From positions 1 through 36,695 of the IMG/VR virus record IMGVR_UViG_3300020000_000044: a stretch of 36,695 nt of DNA; one strand, written 5' to 3'. The position numbers and the translations under genes were made by a program. This DNA comes from a virus. The notes under the pieces are model-generated. The model ran no database searches. It saw only the letters and a program-made list of their open reading frames with translations, and was not told the DNA's origin. Shown here in pieces: positions 13,092 through 36,695 of this stretch. Every line of letters begins with the position of its first letter. Position 1 is the first letter of the stretch.

Positions 13092-13114
13092 GTGTATTCC
13101 TCATATAATAAGGT

Positions 13115-13380
13115 GGCAGTAGGTGGGATTTGTACCCACTGTGAGCTTGGCCACATCCCTACCCTATAGTAGAATCAGATAGGGCAGATTATGCTTTCTA
13201 CGGAAGCATATTACATCTGTTGCCAGTGATAGAAGCTAATTACTCCCGTGGGCTCTTGATCTATATAAACCTCACCACTAGGTAATTTTATATCACCCTT
13301 TTGCCATACTCCATTTGTATGGGTTTGTTCTCACAACTTAAGATGCCTACATTTGCATGTCTAACCACGCGGCTACTGCC
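13115..13380 (-). ncRNA. Structured RNA-like unit B with tRNA-like ends (266 nt)
   Basis: No protein gene fits here. Read on the - strand, the ends form an 8-bp stem, GGCAGTAG (13380-13373) with CTACTGCC (13122-13115). Stacked on its 3' arm is a T-arm-like hairpin, GTGGG-TACAAAT-CCCAC (13139-13123), and near the 5' arm a D-arm-like hairpin, GCGTG-GTTAGA-CATGC. Between them are several more hairpins (TTGT-GAGA-ACAA; CCATAC...GTATGG; TATGCTT...AAGCATA; CCCTAT...ATAGGG). This is far too long for a tRNA and lacks tmRNA signatures I know. It shares its junction with unit A and with the units at 26629-26916. It may be an RNA or the leader of the 72-aa gene. Confidence 0.5.
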
Positions 13381-13386
13381 ATAAAC

Positions 13387-13459
13387 TGGCGGCCTAATAT
13401 CTCTATACACAGCCTACCCTCGGTAACAAACCGAGCGGGACGTATAAAGACAATAGGCC
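13387..13459 (-). ncRNA. Structured RNA-like unit A (73 nt)
   Basis: On the - strand this unit starts GGCCTA (13459-13454) and ends TAGGCC followed by GCCA (13396-13387). Inside is a CTCGG-TTTGTTA-CCGAG hairpin with a seven-base loop. It is preceded by TTTAT and followed by G-TTTAT plus the next unit, the same joint as between the units near 26.7 kb. Its size and GCCA end are tRNA-like but no cloverleaf can be drawn. Confidence 0.42.
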
Positions 13460-23550: not shown

Positions 23551-24396
23551 ATGTCTATAGCTGTCGATTTAGGTTTATTTCTGCGGAACTCATTAAGCAA
23601 GCTAGGTTTAAGTTTAACTCAACGTGGTGTCCTTTTTACATTAGCTATTCGTGTCGGCAATAACGCATCAACTTGGATTAGCCAAGAAACGCTAGCTATT
23701 GAATTGGGTATTATCGAAAGAAATGTTAGGCTAAATATGTCTAAAATAAAACCAACTAAATTAATTTTAGTGGAACAACAGAAAGGCGACAAACGCAAAA
23801 ATCAGTATTCTTTTAATCCGCTATTGTTCAATTATCATCAGCTTAACGATAAAGAAAAAGCCGCCGTCCACAAAAAATTAGGTGATGTTTACTTACCTAT
23901 TGGGCAATCAAATACACCTGGGGATAAACATAAATACCGGTCGAAATCAGCCGGTAATAATCTAAATAGCGGTCGAAATCGACCGGTAGATAGAGGTCGA
24001 AATCGACCTATAGTTGATGTAACCAAAACCTCGGAAGCCCTTGATACGCCTGCGTTTTCGGGTGATGCAAATTCTCCGAAAGAGACAGCTTATAGCAACA
24101 CTTATAATCAAAACAACAGAGCTACGCGCTGCTCTGTTAATTTAGTTTCATATCCTGATGATTTTTTTCCAGAGAATCAGGCAAGGGAAGCTTTGACCTA
24201 TCATGCGCAAAGAACAAACAACTCTGAGAATTATTTATTGGCGCGTTTCGAATTTATTATGAAGAAGTACAAAGCTAAGTCGAAAGACTGGCAAGAAAAG
24301 TTTATAGAGTTTTTGAAGGAGGAAATGCCAAAGCGTACTTATGAAGATGACAAAGGCCAGAAAAGACGTTATGACAACCAATCAATGAATCATTAG
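23551..24396 (+). CDS. Phage replication initiator (O-like, winged helix plus DnaT-like tail)
   Basis: A 281-aa protein. Residues about 12-75 are a winged helix-turn-helix (LSLTQRGVLFTLAIRV, then WISQETLAIELGIIERNVRL), typical of phage replication initiators. The middle (about 110-200) is a hydrophilic linker containing repeated GRNRP words, because the DNA below it carries iterons (23939-24008). The C-terminus (YLLARFEFIMKKYKAKSKDW, then QEKFIEFLKEEM) resembles the DnaT/helicase-loader type motif F-x(4)-Y...DW-x2-x-F-x2-x-L. The start is set at 23551 by GAGGATTTAAAAATG; the ORF extends upstream through the leader but without a ribosome site. Lambda O has the same plan, with the origin in its own gene. 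Confidence 0.78.
   Translation: MSIAVDLGLFLRNSLSKLGLSLTQRGVLFTLAIRVGNNASTWISQETLAIELGIIERNVRLNMSKIKPTKLILVEQQKGDKRKNQYSFNPLLFNYHQLNDKEKAAVHKKLGDVYLPIGQSNTPGDKHKYRSKSAGNNLNSGRNRPVDRGRNRPIVDVTKTSEALDTPAFSGDANSPKETAYSNTYNQNNRATRCSVNLVSYPDDFFPENQAREALTYHAQRTNNSENYLLARFEFIMKKYKAKSKDWQEKFIEFLKEEMPKRTYEDDKGQKRRYDNQSMNH
23939..24008. repeat. Iteron cluster inside the initiator gene (candidate origin)
   Basis: Three copies of GGTCGAAATCGACC, itself an inverted repeat: 23939-23952 (GGTCGAAATCAGCC, imperfect), 23971-23984 (perfect) and 23995-24008 (perfect), spaced 32 and 24 bases apart. They code for the repeated GRNRP words. Iterons within the middle of an initiator gene are the layout of the lambda-type origin. 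Confidence 0.7.
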
Positions 24397-26122: not shown

Positions 26123-26620
26123 ATGGATAGGAAGCCTAAAAAGATTGGTCGCCCCACCTCGTATCGTCTTAAACTTGCTCACCGTATTTGTGATTTAATA
26201 GCTACTCATGCGATAGGTCTGCGAACTTTAACGGCAACTCATGACTGGATGCCTACGCAGAGTACAATTAATAAATGGTTATGGAAGCATGAGGAGTTTT
26301 CATTGCTCTACGCGCGAGCAAAACTAGCACAGGCAGCAATTTTGCCAGATGAATGTTTGGACATCTCGGATGATACAAGTCGAGATACTTTGTACAAAAC
26401 TAATAAAGATGGCGAAGAACACGAAGTTGCGAACAATGAATGGATCAATCGTTCTAGGCTTCGCGTGGATACCCGAAAATGGCTCTCAGCTAAGCTATTG
26501 CCACGCATATGGGGTGATGCTAAGCGTGTAGAAGATCTCGAAGGACAGAATGATATCTTGCGTCAAGAATTAAGGACTCTTCGCGCTGAACTTGATGCGA
26601 AGAGCCAGAAGGAGTTTTAA
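26123..26620 (+). CDS. Terminase small subunit (Sf6-type)
   Basis: A 165-aa protein of the Sf6-like small terminase family: GRPTSYRLKLAHRICDLIA and W-x-P-x-x-S-T-I-N-K-W-L helix-turn-helix at residues about 10-55, EEFSLLYARAKLAQAAILPD (55-75), then VDTRKWLSAKLLPRIWGDAK (about 118-137) and a final helix for oligomerisation. It selects the packaging site (pac) and feeds DNA to the large subunit. The AAAGGATTTTTT site precedes the ATG. Unusually, the large subunit does not follow directly: a 311-base structured region and a 63-aa gene lie between. Confidence 0.9.
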   Translation: MDRKPKKIGRPTSYRLKLAHRICDLIATHAIGLRTLTATHDWMPTQSTINKWLWKHEEFSLLYARAKLAQAAILPDECLDISDDTSRDTLYKTNKDGEEHEVANNEWINRSRLRVDTRKWLSAKLLPRIWGDAKRVEDLEGQNDILRQELRTLRAELDAKSQKEF

Positions 26621-26628
26621 AAGTTTAT

Positions 26629-26727
26629 GGTAATCGCGGCGTGAAAAACGTCTCTCTTGGTAACTAGGGGATTCAATGGAATCAGCCATAGACCGTTAAG
26701 CCGTGTAATCCGGCACGATTACCGCCA
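26629..26727 (+). ncRNA. Structured RNA-like unit 1 (99 nt)
   Basis: Closed by GGTAATCG (26629-26636) and CGATTACC (26716-26723), followed by GCCA (26724-26727). Inside: GATTC-AATG-GAATC (26670-26683) and GCCG-TGTAATC-CGGC (26700-26714), the latter next to the closing stem like a T-arm. The closing stem matches that of unit B (GGCAGTAG/CTACTGCC) with paired changes at three positions, evidence for a real stem. Alternatively the DNA could be part of a packaging site. Confidence 0.5.
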
Positions 26728-26732
26728 TTTAT

Positions 26733-26916
26733 GGCCTACGTGATGTTGATCCTAGGAGCGTGTGCGCGTCTCAAGGGGGAATCAGTGATAACGCGCCAAA
26801 TATGGTAGTCGGAGCCAAATAGACCGACAGTCACAGGCCGCCAATTTATGGCCGACGATACTTTACATATGAAGTGGGTTTCGACCTGAGAAAAGTAAGG
26901 AAAAATAGGCCGCCCA
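26733..26916 (+). ncRNA. Structured RNA-like units 2 and 3
   Basis: Unit 2 runs 26733-26843: GGCCT-AC-GTGA at the start pairs with TCAC-AGGCC (26831-26839), then GCCA. Unit 3 runs 26850-26916: GGCC start, AGGCC-GCCCA end, with ACTT...AAGT and GGT-TTCG-ACC hairpins inside. Each is preceded by TTTAT like unit 1, and the words 'agccatagaccg' and 'agccaaatagaccg' recur in units 1 and 2. No protein gene fits here. Confidence 0.42.
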
Positions 26917-26931
26917 TTAAAAGGATATGTT

Positions 26932-27123
26932 ATGGAAGATGTGTTTAAGAAAACTTATAGAACATTAACGTTATCTGAAGCTACGTTATGCGAAGATATC
27001 AAAGAGCAAGCGCAAGAACTTTATAATTTATTTGATCAATCTATCGCTAATAGAGAAATGGCGCTTGCTAAAACAAACCTAGAACAATCTGTTATGTGGG
27101 CAATCAAAGCTATCACAAAATGA
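26932..27123 (+). CDS. Acb2/Tad1-type helical hairpin protein, probable anti-defence sponge
   Basis: A 63-aa protein whose C-terminal half, NREMALAKTNLEQSVMWAIK-AI, matches the core of the Acb2/Tad1 hairpin family (R-E-x-(S/A)-L-A-x-T-x-L-E-x-(A/S)-x-M-W-A-x-x-A-I). Acb2 proteins bind cyclic oligonucleotides and block CBASS, and some also Thoeris, by soaking up the signal. AAAGGATATGTT precedes the ATG. Its stop overlaps the ATG of the large terminase (AAATGA), so it is made with late proteins. Function is inferred from the family; binding residues were not mapped. Confidence 0.75.
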   Translation: MEDVFKKTYRTLTLSEATLCEDIKEQAQELYNLFDQSIANREMALAKTNLEQSVMWAIKAITK

Positions 27124-28670
27124 AGATAGACCTAGAGAAGGAACTCGAAGCATCTAAACTTAGAGGCTCATTGCATGAGTTCATTAAGTTTTTTGTGAAG
27201 CACATCACCAATCGGGATTATATACAATCAAATCCATTGGGGCGTGAATCACATCAGATTACGATTTGTCGTGAGCTTTCAAGCTTTGCTCGAATGGAAC
27301 ATCCCGACGAAAACTTAATGATTAACGTCGAGCCAGGTTCGGGTAAGTCATTGCATATTTGTATGTGGATTGCGTGGTGCTATGCGCGTAATCCTCAATG
27401 CAATTTTATTTACACATCCTATTCACAAACACTTGCCGCTGAACAAACAGCATTTATCAAACAGATCATGCAATCACAAATGTATGGTTATCTGTTTGAT
27501 GTATTTGTATCGCGTGACACTAAAGCAAAAGATCACTTTGCAACGACTGCGGGCGGTCATTGTGCGGCTTTCGGAACCGCTGGCGCTATCACAGGTCGTA
27601 ACGCGGGATTACCTGGACAAGATATATTTAGTGGCGCTGTCATCATCGATGATGCCCACAAGCCTGATGAAGCGCATTCTGACACGATGCGTGAGCAAGT
27701 CATAAAGAACTACGAAGAAACAATTAGGCAACGGCCTCGCGGTGAAAACGTTCCCATTGTTTTTATTGGCCAGCGTGTTCATGAAAAGGATTTAGCGGCT
27801 TTCTTTTTAGAAGATAAAGACACGAAACCCATTCGTAAAATTATTATTAAATCATTGGATGAAGCGGGTAACGCGCTCTATCCAGAGGTACATTCAAAAG
27901 AGTATTTGTTAGCCCTTCAAGAAAAGTCACCTTATGTGTTTTCAAGTCAGTTTCAACAACGACCCACACCGGCGGGTGGTTCATTGTTTAGACCTGAGTG
28001 GATGTTGGAGCTAGATAAAGAACCGGATATGCTTTGCACTTTCATCACAGGCGATACAGCGGAAACAGACAAAACATATAATGATCCCACTGTATTAAGT
28101 TTCTTTGGGTTGTATGAAATTAAAATTCTTGGTAAGCCTACCGGTGAACTTGGCTTGCATTGGCTTGATTGCGTTGAAGAATGGGTGGAACCGTTAGAGC
28201 TTGAACAAATGTTTATGGATTTCTTGGTCGAGTGTAATCGTCATCCTGTGCCTCCTCGTGTGGCTGCTATTGAAAAGAAGTCAACGGGTGTAACCCTGAT
28301 ACCAGTATTGAATAAAATTCAAGGCATCAAGATTCGTGAGGTTAAGCGCACCAAAGCATCAGGTAGTAAAACCGTTCGTTATATTGAGATGCAACCCTAT
28401 GTTGCTAGCAAGTGTGTGACCTTCAGTATAGGCGCCAAGCACGTTAAAAAGTGTAAAGACCATATGGAAAAAATCACGGCGAACGACACTCATAGGCATG
28501 ACGATATTTGTGATACACTTTATGACGGAGTAAAAATTGGACTAATTGACAAATCATTGCATGTCCCAATGTCGAATAAACCCGACCCTGGTAATGATGT
28601 CATGAACTCACTCGCGGCACAGATGCGGCGACAACACATTTTAAGAACGCAAAGGAATGCAAATGATTAA
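27120..28670 (+). CDS. Terminase large subunit (packaging ATPase/nuclease)
   Basis: A 516-aa protein. Walker A EPGSGKS at residues 71-77, Walker B AVIIDDAHKP about 178-187, then a C-terminal nuclease with FITGDTAETD (Asp about 308), AAIEKKSTGV (Glu about 382) and HDDICDTLYDG (Asp about 462). It cuts concatemeric DNA and pumps it into the prohead through the portal. The start 27120 is chosen because it overlaps the Acb2-like stop (ATGA); an in-frame upstream ATG at 27096 lies inside that gene. The type (headful) is inferred from P22-like context. Confidence 0.95.
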   Translation: MKIDLEKELEASKLRGSLHEFIKFFVKHITNRDYIQSNPLGRESHQITICRELSSFARMEHPDENLMINVEPGSGKSLHICMWIAWCYARNPQCNFIYTSYSQTLAAEQTAFIKQIMQSQMYGYLFDVFVSRDTKAKDHFATTAGGHCAAFGTAGAITGRNAGLPGQDIFSGAVIIDDAHKPDEAHSDTMREQVIKNYEETIRQRPRGENVPIVFIGQRVHEKDLAAFFLEDKDTKPIRKIIIKSLDEAGNALYPEVHSKEYLLALQEKSPYVFSSQFQQRPTPAGGSLFRPEWMLELDKEPDMLCTFITGDTAETDKTYNDPTVLSFFGLYEIKILGKPTGELGLHWLDCVEEWVEPLELEQMFMDFLVECNRHPVPPRVAAIEKKSTGVTLIPVLNKIQGIKIREVKRTKASGSKTVRYIEMQPYVASKCVTFSIGAKHVKKCKDHMEKITANDTHRHDDICDTLYDGVKIGLIDKSLHVPMSNKPDPGNDVMNSLAAQMRRQHILRTQRNAND

Positions 28671-35548: not shown

Positions 35549-36695
35549 ATGCCTTTAACTACTGGATCTACAGAGATACCCGTGAACATCGTAGGCAGTT
35601 CGATATTCGGCGTATATCCCACAATCAGCGTCGAACGTACCTACAATATGTACGTTACTTACAATGGCGATAAAACCGAAGAATCGCTGGTTAACTTCCC
35701 TGGTTATCAAGCATTGCTCGCCCTATTTGATGAAAAGCTTGAAGGTCGCGGCATATTCTATTCGGTCAGGGGTGGATTTTTTCTAGCAGTCGTTGAAGCG
35801 TCAGTATGGCGTGTCAATTTACTTTCTGAGATACCGACACAGCTCGGCACCATTGGCACTAACAGCGGTGAAGTATTCTTTGATGAAAATCTTTCAGGCC
35901 AAATTTGTTTTGTCGATGGGCAAGTCGCCTATATTTACAATTACCCACAGGCGCCCACGGCGATTGCTGCTGCTGTTTTTGATTCTCACGCATCAGACTT
36001 TCAGCCAAATTATGTCACTTATCAAAATACCTATTTTATCTTTGGTAATGGCTTAACGACGAATGATGGCTCACAGTGGGTGATATACCAACAAAACATT
36101 GCTAGCACACCTTATTCTCTGGCATGGGTGCAAACGCTTGCACTTCAAACGAAACCTGATTTTGCAAAGGCGGTTATTCGTATACCAGGTAAAGGCAATA
36201 ACATTCTTGTTTTTGGTTCTACTGTTGCTGAGCTATGGACAAACATTGGCGGCCTTCAAGTCTATCAACGAAATTCCTCGCTCAATAGCGATTTCGGTGC
36301 GGCTTCAGTCTCAACCATTGCGGCAAATGATGAAGTGGTGGCATGGCTTGGCATTAATGAAAAATCATCCGTAGCACTGATGGCAAGTAAAGGAGGCGCC
36401 CCTGGTCGTATTTCAACTGACGGTTTAGATCATTTGCTAGAAAGCGTTAAGGTTCCACAATCCTCAACAGCATTTTTGTATCGACAAGGTGGGCATTTAT
36501 TCTATGTGTTAACGTTTCTCGATCCGCTCGATAACTTTAGCATCATGTATGATTTTACGAATGACAAAATATTTGATTTAACGGACTGGGATTTCTCGGC
36601 ATTTCCCGCTCGGCAAACCATATTCTTTGATCATAAGACACTATTCATTAGTTGGAAGGACGGGCAGATATTCGAGCTAAGCGCGAATCTACCGC
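35549..36695 (+). CDS. P22 gp10-like packaged-DNA stabilisation protein, N-terminal part (runs off edge)
   Basis: The ORF starts at ATG 35549 (MPLTTGSTEIPVNIVGSSIF) and is open to the right edge; the in-frame continuation is 1-615, and the total is about 542 aa once the 133-bp overlap is removed. The SERTYNMYV segment near residue 35, the repeated beta strands and the FVDGQ/FIFGNG pattern fit the beta-propeller-like gp10 family, which closes the tail tube beneath gp4. It stands in the right place in the P22 order. The ribosome site is weak (TTAATGG region). Confidence 0.82.
   Translation, partial: MPLTTGSTEIPVNIVGSSIFGVYPTISVERTYNMYVTYNGDKTEESLVNFPGYQALLALFDEKLEGRGIFYSVRGGFFLAVVEASVWRVNLLSEIPTQLGTIGTNSGEVFFDENLSGQICFVDGQVAYIYNYPQAPTAIAAAVFDSHASDFQPNYVTYQNTYFIFGNGLTTNDGSQWVIYQQNIASTPYSLAWVQTLALQTKPDFAKAVIRIPGKGNNILVFGSTVAELWTNIGGLQVYQRNSSLNSDFGAASVSTIAANDEVVAWLGINEKSSVALMASKGGAPGRISTDGLDHLLESVKVPQSSTAFLYRQGGHLFYVLTFLDPLDNFSIMYDFTNDKIFDLTDWDFSAFPARQTIFFDHKTLFISWKDGQIFELSANLP
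36563..36695. repeat. Right copy of 133-bp terminal overlap
   Basis: Same sequence as 1-133 except two bases (36566 a, 36692 c). See the left copy. With one copy removed the circle is 36,562 bp. Confidence 0.93.

Follow-up and report, generated by a model that had tools for sequence, protein, structure and literature searches.

The window, by which we mean the whole 36,695-nucleotide stretch of viral DNA analysed here, carries two arrays of short structured RNA units. Judged by comparison with other viruses, all but one of the units belong to structured-RNA families that are new and that occur in some 50 loci of uncultured viruses. The best explanation we can offer, to which we give a probability of roughly 0.6, is that these RNAs mature as tRNAs do and then act in trans, with counter-defence as their most probable use. 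As far as our searches reach, the RNA families and their cassette organisation are new, a claim that includes no function. An initial annotation had likened the region between the terminase genes to a run of tRNA-like modules. This likeness has held up, as the arms of one class (class A) covary, genuine tRNAs occur in arrays, and most units of another (class K) end in [A/G]CCA.

The features needed below are given here. R1, for class A, and R2, for class K, are covariance models that were built without any window sequence and searched against the whole window, on both strands.

13112 to 13380, minus strand: unit 5, a tRNA-like RNA of class A with a long domain inserted in its middle (R1 E 5.9e-4)
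13387 to 13459, minus strand: unit 4, a long rod-like hairpin, bordered by TTTAT and GG at one end and GCCA at the other (fold z -6.1)
26123 to 26620, plus strand: terminase small subunit gene (terS; phrog_1482), the upstream neighbour of the array
26624 to 26628, plus strand: TTTAT leader of unit 1, just past the terS stop
26629 to 26727, plus strand: unit 1, a class A tRNA-like RNA (R1 E 6.7e-5, fold z -2.85)
26733 to 26843, plus strand: unit 2, a class D structured RNA, homologous to units of five other phages
26850 to 26916, plus strand: unit 3, a class K RNA (R2 E 3.1e-9; family covariation)
26932 to 27123, plus strand: Acb2/Tad1 hairpin-domain gene (PF24729, E 3e-15, above cut-off), directly downstream of the array
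27120 to 28670, plus strand: terminase large subunit gene (terL), which abuts the terS stop in relatives L002-L004

The gap between terS and the Acb2 gene (26621-26931, 311 nt) is non-coding, with no ORF of at least 50 aa, and the three units lie in it where they had originally been placed. They are spaced by TTTAT plus 0-1 nt only and are oriented the same way as the neighbouring genes. A second array, made of units 4 and 5 on the minus strand (13112-13459), completes the five units of which the initial annotation spoke. Unit 1 does have the 8-bp closing stem and T-arm-like hairpin ascribed to it: the closing, or acceptor, stem GGTAATCG/CGATTACC is followed by a discriminator G and an encoded CCA, and the hairpin reads GCCG-TGTAATC-CGGC. 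Unit 5 is built alike, with an 8-bp stem GGCAGTAG/CTACTGCC, a T-arm-like hairpin GTGGG-TACAAAT-CCCAC and a 3′ A-CC. In unit 3 a P1 helix (GGCC/GGCC) and a conserved 7x7 internal loop (GACGAUA/(G)AAAAUA) are combined with a P2 and apical region that are variable and covary, and the 3′ end is GCCCA. A closing stem is present in five of five units, and the acceptor-like stem, discriminator and CCA-type end were all found; the encoded 3′ end is CCA in units 1, 2 and 4, CCCA in unit 3 and CC only in unit 5. A canonical cloverleaf is absent from unit 1, and the early remark that none can be drawn agrees with the tRNA searches. ARAGORN reported no tRNA and no tmRNA in the window, and none of the Rfam 15 covariance models (tRNA RF00005, tmRNA, GOLLD, ROOL and all others) matched the units.

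Folding energy tells only part of this. The fold of the whole gap is ordinary (z -0.44), hence the energy of the region as a whole was rejected as uninformative. Taken one by one, units 1 (z -2.85), 4 (-6.1) and 5 (-3.7, for 13110-13383) fold significantly, and units 2 (-0.86) and 3 (about -0.5 to -1.3) do not; comparative data were therefore needed. It is comparative evidence that establishes the units; energy by itself is insufficient.

The two best matches of R1 in the window are units 1 and 5, each with its exact 5′ end, and the third (E 0.13) is the antisense of unit 1. The best match of R2 is unit 3, with the next at E 1.1. In a pooled search with a larger search space unit 1 was found at E 0.0017 and unit 5 at E 0.016. 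Their bit scores are 25 and 22, compared with mostly 70-110 for the class A core, and in unit 1 the D-arm pairs of R1 are mostly unaligned. On these alignments, units 1 and 5 are to be regarded as distant members of class A. No relatives of unit 4 were found in a scan with its 5′ 15-mer, and it gave no full-length match to R2. Unit 4 is an orphan rod, which has the same borders and fits no family.

The initial annotation had proposed covariation in homologues as a check on the units, and it is seen in classes A, K and D. Class A, to which units 1 and 5 are assigned, has a tRNA-like elbow in which a variable domain replaces the anticodon arm. An 8-bp acceptor (GGCAATCG/CGATTGCC) is stacked on a 5-bp T-like stem, the D-like hairpin has the loop GACAGTGA and the T-like hairpin the loop TGCAATT, and the middle of some 40-150 nt is freely variable. 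In the alignment 99.4% of cells are paired, and there are double changes in 14 of the 18 pairs. The covariation score is 0.452 compared with 0.153 for shuffled alignments, none of 500 shuffles scored as high and slid versions were all far lower. The acceptor, the D-like arm and the T-like arm all covary.

Class K, which includes unit 3, runs GGCCGACGAUAC...GGGAAAAUAGGCC[A/G]CCA, with the layout GGCC GACGAUA C(U), a variable helix and apex, and then GG GAAAAUA GGCC [A/G]CCA. Among 61 distinct sequences double changes occur in 8 of the 10 pairs, a result that none of 500 shuffles reached; this alignment was fitted to the model, and the original alignment agrees with it. Class D has six members, unit 2 and units of L029, L120, L129, L133 and L134, which have common sequence and a covarying structure. 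Their alignment (A3) holds compensatory changes in 12 of 27 pairs, again with a covariation score matched by 0 of 500 shuffles. The arrays host further unit types, e.g. those that begin GGGGAGAGAAGGG, GGCTCTCGA and GGGAATCAGGTACAG. The first of these, conserved as GGGGAGAGAAGGG...AGTAAGCGTACGATGAAATG...GGCCTCTTCCC in L077, L149 and L154, is probably another new RNA family. A different type, starting GGCT[C/T]TCGA with a conserved core CGCGCGA..AGT and closing with AGAGAGCC or AGAAAGCC, was seen in L145, L175, L208 and L218.

Arrays in other viruses were located with a pattern for the junction between units combined with a filter for the closing stem. This returned true arrays in L029, L077 and L120, and later scans added more. 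The 14-base border pattern used alone on viral contigs gave mostly chance matches and was set aside; true arrays needed the stem filter. At E of 0.05 or below there were 69 matches to R2 and 48 to R1, from 100 sources, some duplicates included, and as a negative control R2 found no class K match in 881 kb of other viral DNA. Of 30 virus records searched whole, most of them 33-40 kb, 17 have class K units and 21 have class A units. In L003 (= G001), the closest TerL relative to have been checked as a whole record (37 kb), neither class was found, so the RNAs are not essential. A second negative control used an 18-mer of class K, TTTATGGCCGACGATACT, which 30 fetched viral loci contain. Bacterial and archaeal genomes totalling 257 Gb have it once, inside coding DNA and without the rest of the unit, an occurrence that we discounted as a chance coding match. 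When the window region, L161 and L204 were compared with isolated phages by blastn, none found a match, and the L120 array matched only through its genuine tRNA-Gln. The nearest TerL of an isolated phage is about 33% identical to that of the window. An Rfam search of 13 array-bearing loci recovered tRNAs only, and the literature we searched, which took in few subscription papers and no preprints, describes no such arrays.

Near-identical units of different phages were compared together with 400 nt of flank. Homology starts at the unit or a few bases before it and stops within about 15 bases of its end, and the flanks differ. This border-limited homology is seen in the pairs L145/L192, L169/L207, L140/L215, L175/L204 and L120/L204, and two units of identical type stand in opposite order in L161 and L169. 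Because homology stops at the unit borders and the order is permuted, the units behave as exchangeable cassettes. Among uncharacterised segments that directly adjoin known units, 19 of 33 have a closing stem (at least 6 of 7 pairs) and NCC, against 11.7% in a control with swapped 5′ ends. The swap would probably proceed by homologous annealing at the common ends, a step that is plausible since the window encodes a RecT (PF03837). In the window itself the array and the Acb2 gene occupy the 499 bases from the terS stop to the TerL ATG at 27120. In the three closest IMG/VR relatives by TerL (72-76% identity) terS abuts terL with no intervening sequence; the array and Acb2 are thus an insertion, because the start of terL abuts the terS stop in L002-L004.

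The setting of the arrays is that of ordinary genes in operons. ORFs flanking 55 arrays are co-directional in 92 cases and opposed in 13, and units often lie 2-16 nt past a stop codon and 16-30 nt ahead of the next start. Of 53 class K units, 40 have TTTA[T/C] as their leader at positions -5 to -1, as do 22 of the 35 units of class A. After the closing stem, 38 of the 53 class K units have [A/G]CCA; CCA is encoded in few class A units. Genuine tRNAs (Gln, Leu, His, Phe, Asn, Asp, Tyr and Pro) are found within or beside arrays, as is a weak tRNA (38 bits) in the array of L149. The L208 array (L208:3050-3800) combines a class K unit with a genuine tRNA-Met and with units of several further types; lying directly upstream of a TerL-like ORF, it is a second terminase-adjacent case. 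A hidden coding sequence, named at the outset as something that would speak against RNA, was looked for and not found. The reading TTT-ATG-GCC was rejected, since 41 of 53 class K units have a stop in the frame of the ATG in TTTATGG, and the other frames have stops about as often.

We propose that the window holds two RNA-cassette arrays in which each unit would be a separate structured non-coding RNA gene of 67-270 nt, carried inside an ordinary operon transcript. The ends of the units mimic tRNA: TTTAT forms a U-rich leader, position +1 is a G, an acceptor-like stem closes the unit, and behind it come a discriminator, which is unpaired, and in most cases an encoded CCA. RNase P and the host machinery for tRNA 3′ ends may then excise them, as for the genuine tRNAs in the arrays, and the released units would be stable small RNAs acting in trans. 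Whole units are traded among phages as cassettes. Processing of the units by RNase P is likely, and that they work in trans is similarly probable. If the units mature as tRNAs do and act in trans, their ends, their place in operons, the presence of tRNAs in arrays and the exchange of units as modules all have an explanation.

What the units might do is a more tentative matter. Counter-defence or host takeover is their most likely purpose, in which they could act on host enzymes that read tRNAs or structured RNA, either as decoys or as inhibitors, and we tentatively favour such a role in counter-defence. Anti-defence genes adjoin or lie near only 7 of 55 arrays (a raw count). Acb2-like genes adjoin arrays in the window, L136, L163 and L167, and Tad2-like genes lie near those of L142, L145 and L216. 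In the window the gene between the array and terL encodes a 63-aa product of the Acb2/Tad1 anti-CBASS sponge family. Given such neighbours, Acb2 and Tad2, the initial suggestion of a decoy or defence-related RNA looks plausible.

The main rival is that the units are antisense guides, their conserved ends serving as scaffold and their variable middles pairing with transcripts of the host or of competing phages. We consider this unlikely, even though constant ends, very variable middles and several different middles per phage are what a guide would look like. Unit 1 also has, in its variable part, an 18-nt perfect antisense match (26680-26697) to a lar-like restriction-alleviation gene of another phage (L204:6119-6136; E 0.002 in about 2 Mb), but this is the sole such match among 87 unit queries and possibly due to chance. 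Antisense to the own phage can be rejected, as complementarity is not in excess (mean longest match 9.07 compared with 9.17 for shuffled sequences, 87 units). Moreover, the middles are themselves base-paired and are conserved in subfamilies common to different phages.

The tight fit of units between co-directional genes is also what one would expect if they were processing punctuation, i.e. tRNA-like inserts that let RNase P split a polycistronic mRNA into separately controlled messages. Such a role would not need long variable domains, two to four different units in tandem or conserved internal loops, however, and most gene junctions of these phages have no unit, which leaves the idea quite doubtful. 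It is improbable that the units are relics of phage tRNA genes that are degenerating within tRNA arrays. Class A does retain acceptor, D-like and T-like arms, and both genuine tRNAs and weak ones such as that of L149 lie in the same arrays, but decay would not keep stems that covary and loops that stay invariant (GACAGTGA, TGCAA) across 20 diverged sequences, and classes K and D are not tRNA-shaped. The covariation counts already contradict this reading.

The array of the window is directly upstream of Acb2, as would suit a cis-regulatory RNA (a riboswitch, attenuator or thermosensor) for that gene or for terL. The same classes precede or follow many unrelated genes, however, the ends of the units are defined and there is no excess of terminator- or promoter-like sequences in the array region, so we regard such regulation as very improbable. 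Scarcely credible is the pac site or packaging RNA (a DNA structure or a pRNA-like molecule) of the initial annotation: the window array does lie between terS and terL and the L208 array just upstream of a TerL-like ORF, but units 4 and 5, like nearly all the other homologous arrays, are away from the terminase genes, the three relatives with a 72-76% identical TerL do without such a sequence, and the record has 133-bp terminal direct repeats.

Returning to tRNA-like maturation and action in trans, several known systems are worth comparing. The tRNAs of phage T5 neutralise PARIS (PMC11455837). With phage tRNA islands the arrays have in common a polycistronic arrangement, tRNA-type ends, genuine tRNAs in some arrays and a possible role in counter-defence. 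They differ in that neither ARAGORN nor Rfam takes the units for tRNAs, that class A is without a normal anticodon arm and that classes K and D are not shaped like tRNA. GOLLD and ROOL are structured RNAs of phages and prophages, often near tRNA islands and of unknown function; they are single large RNAs, GOLLD often exceeding 800 nt (PMC12286853). The units here are many, short and interchangeable, fall into several classes and have tRNA-like ends, and, unlike GOLLD and ROOL, they match no Rfam model.

Bacterial tRNA-Sec has an 8/5 fold, and class A likewise stacks an 8-bp acceptor on a 5-bp T-like stem. It is set apart by its T-loop (TGCAATT), its D-loop (GACAGTGA), a highly variable middle and the lack of a canonical anticodon arm. 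Integron gene cassettes are exchangeable modules in arrays, with common borders and permuted order, and in these respects resemble the arrays by analogy only, whereas the modules described here are RNA genes and the route proposed for them is homologous annealing. In type III toxin-antitoxin systems the ToxI units, each about 36 nt long and with a pseudoknot, repeat almost without change. They and the pseudo-ToxI arrays of phages are similar to our arrays as tandem short structured phage RNAs linked with defence; our units differ in being 67-270 nt long and belonging to different families.

Regions left empty by annotation pipelines have thus yielded at least three strongly covarying RNA families that are new, and several more unit types besides. 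Should the units act in trans, phages would own an RNA counterpart to their small anti-defence proteins. We tentatively suggest that uncultured phages may possess an RNA arsenal that has so far gone unrecognised, exchangeable libraries of short structured RNAs with tRNA-type ends, which would move from genome to genome as cassettes and serve as RNA-based counter-defence in islands with Acb2 and Tad2. The conserved ends make arrays easy to find and open the way to direct tests of which host enzymes recognise tRNA-like ends.

Two further observations concern the window itself. The direct repeats at its termini (1-133 and 36563-36695) are 133 bp long and 98% identical, suggesting that the genome is complete or circularly redundant. 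Inside a 320-aa ORF, a 26-nt sequence with an inner inverted repeat (TAAATA.CGGTCGAAATCGACCGGTA) is present in three near-tandem copies (23931-24012).
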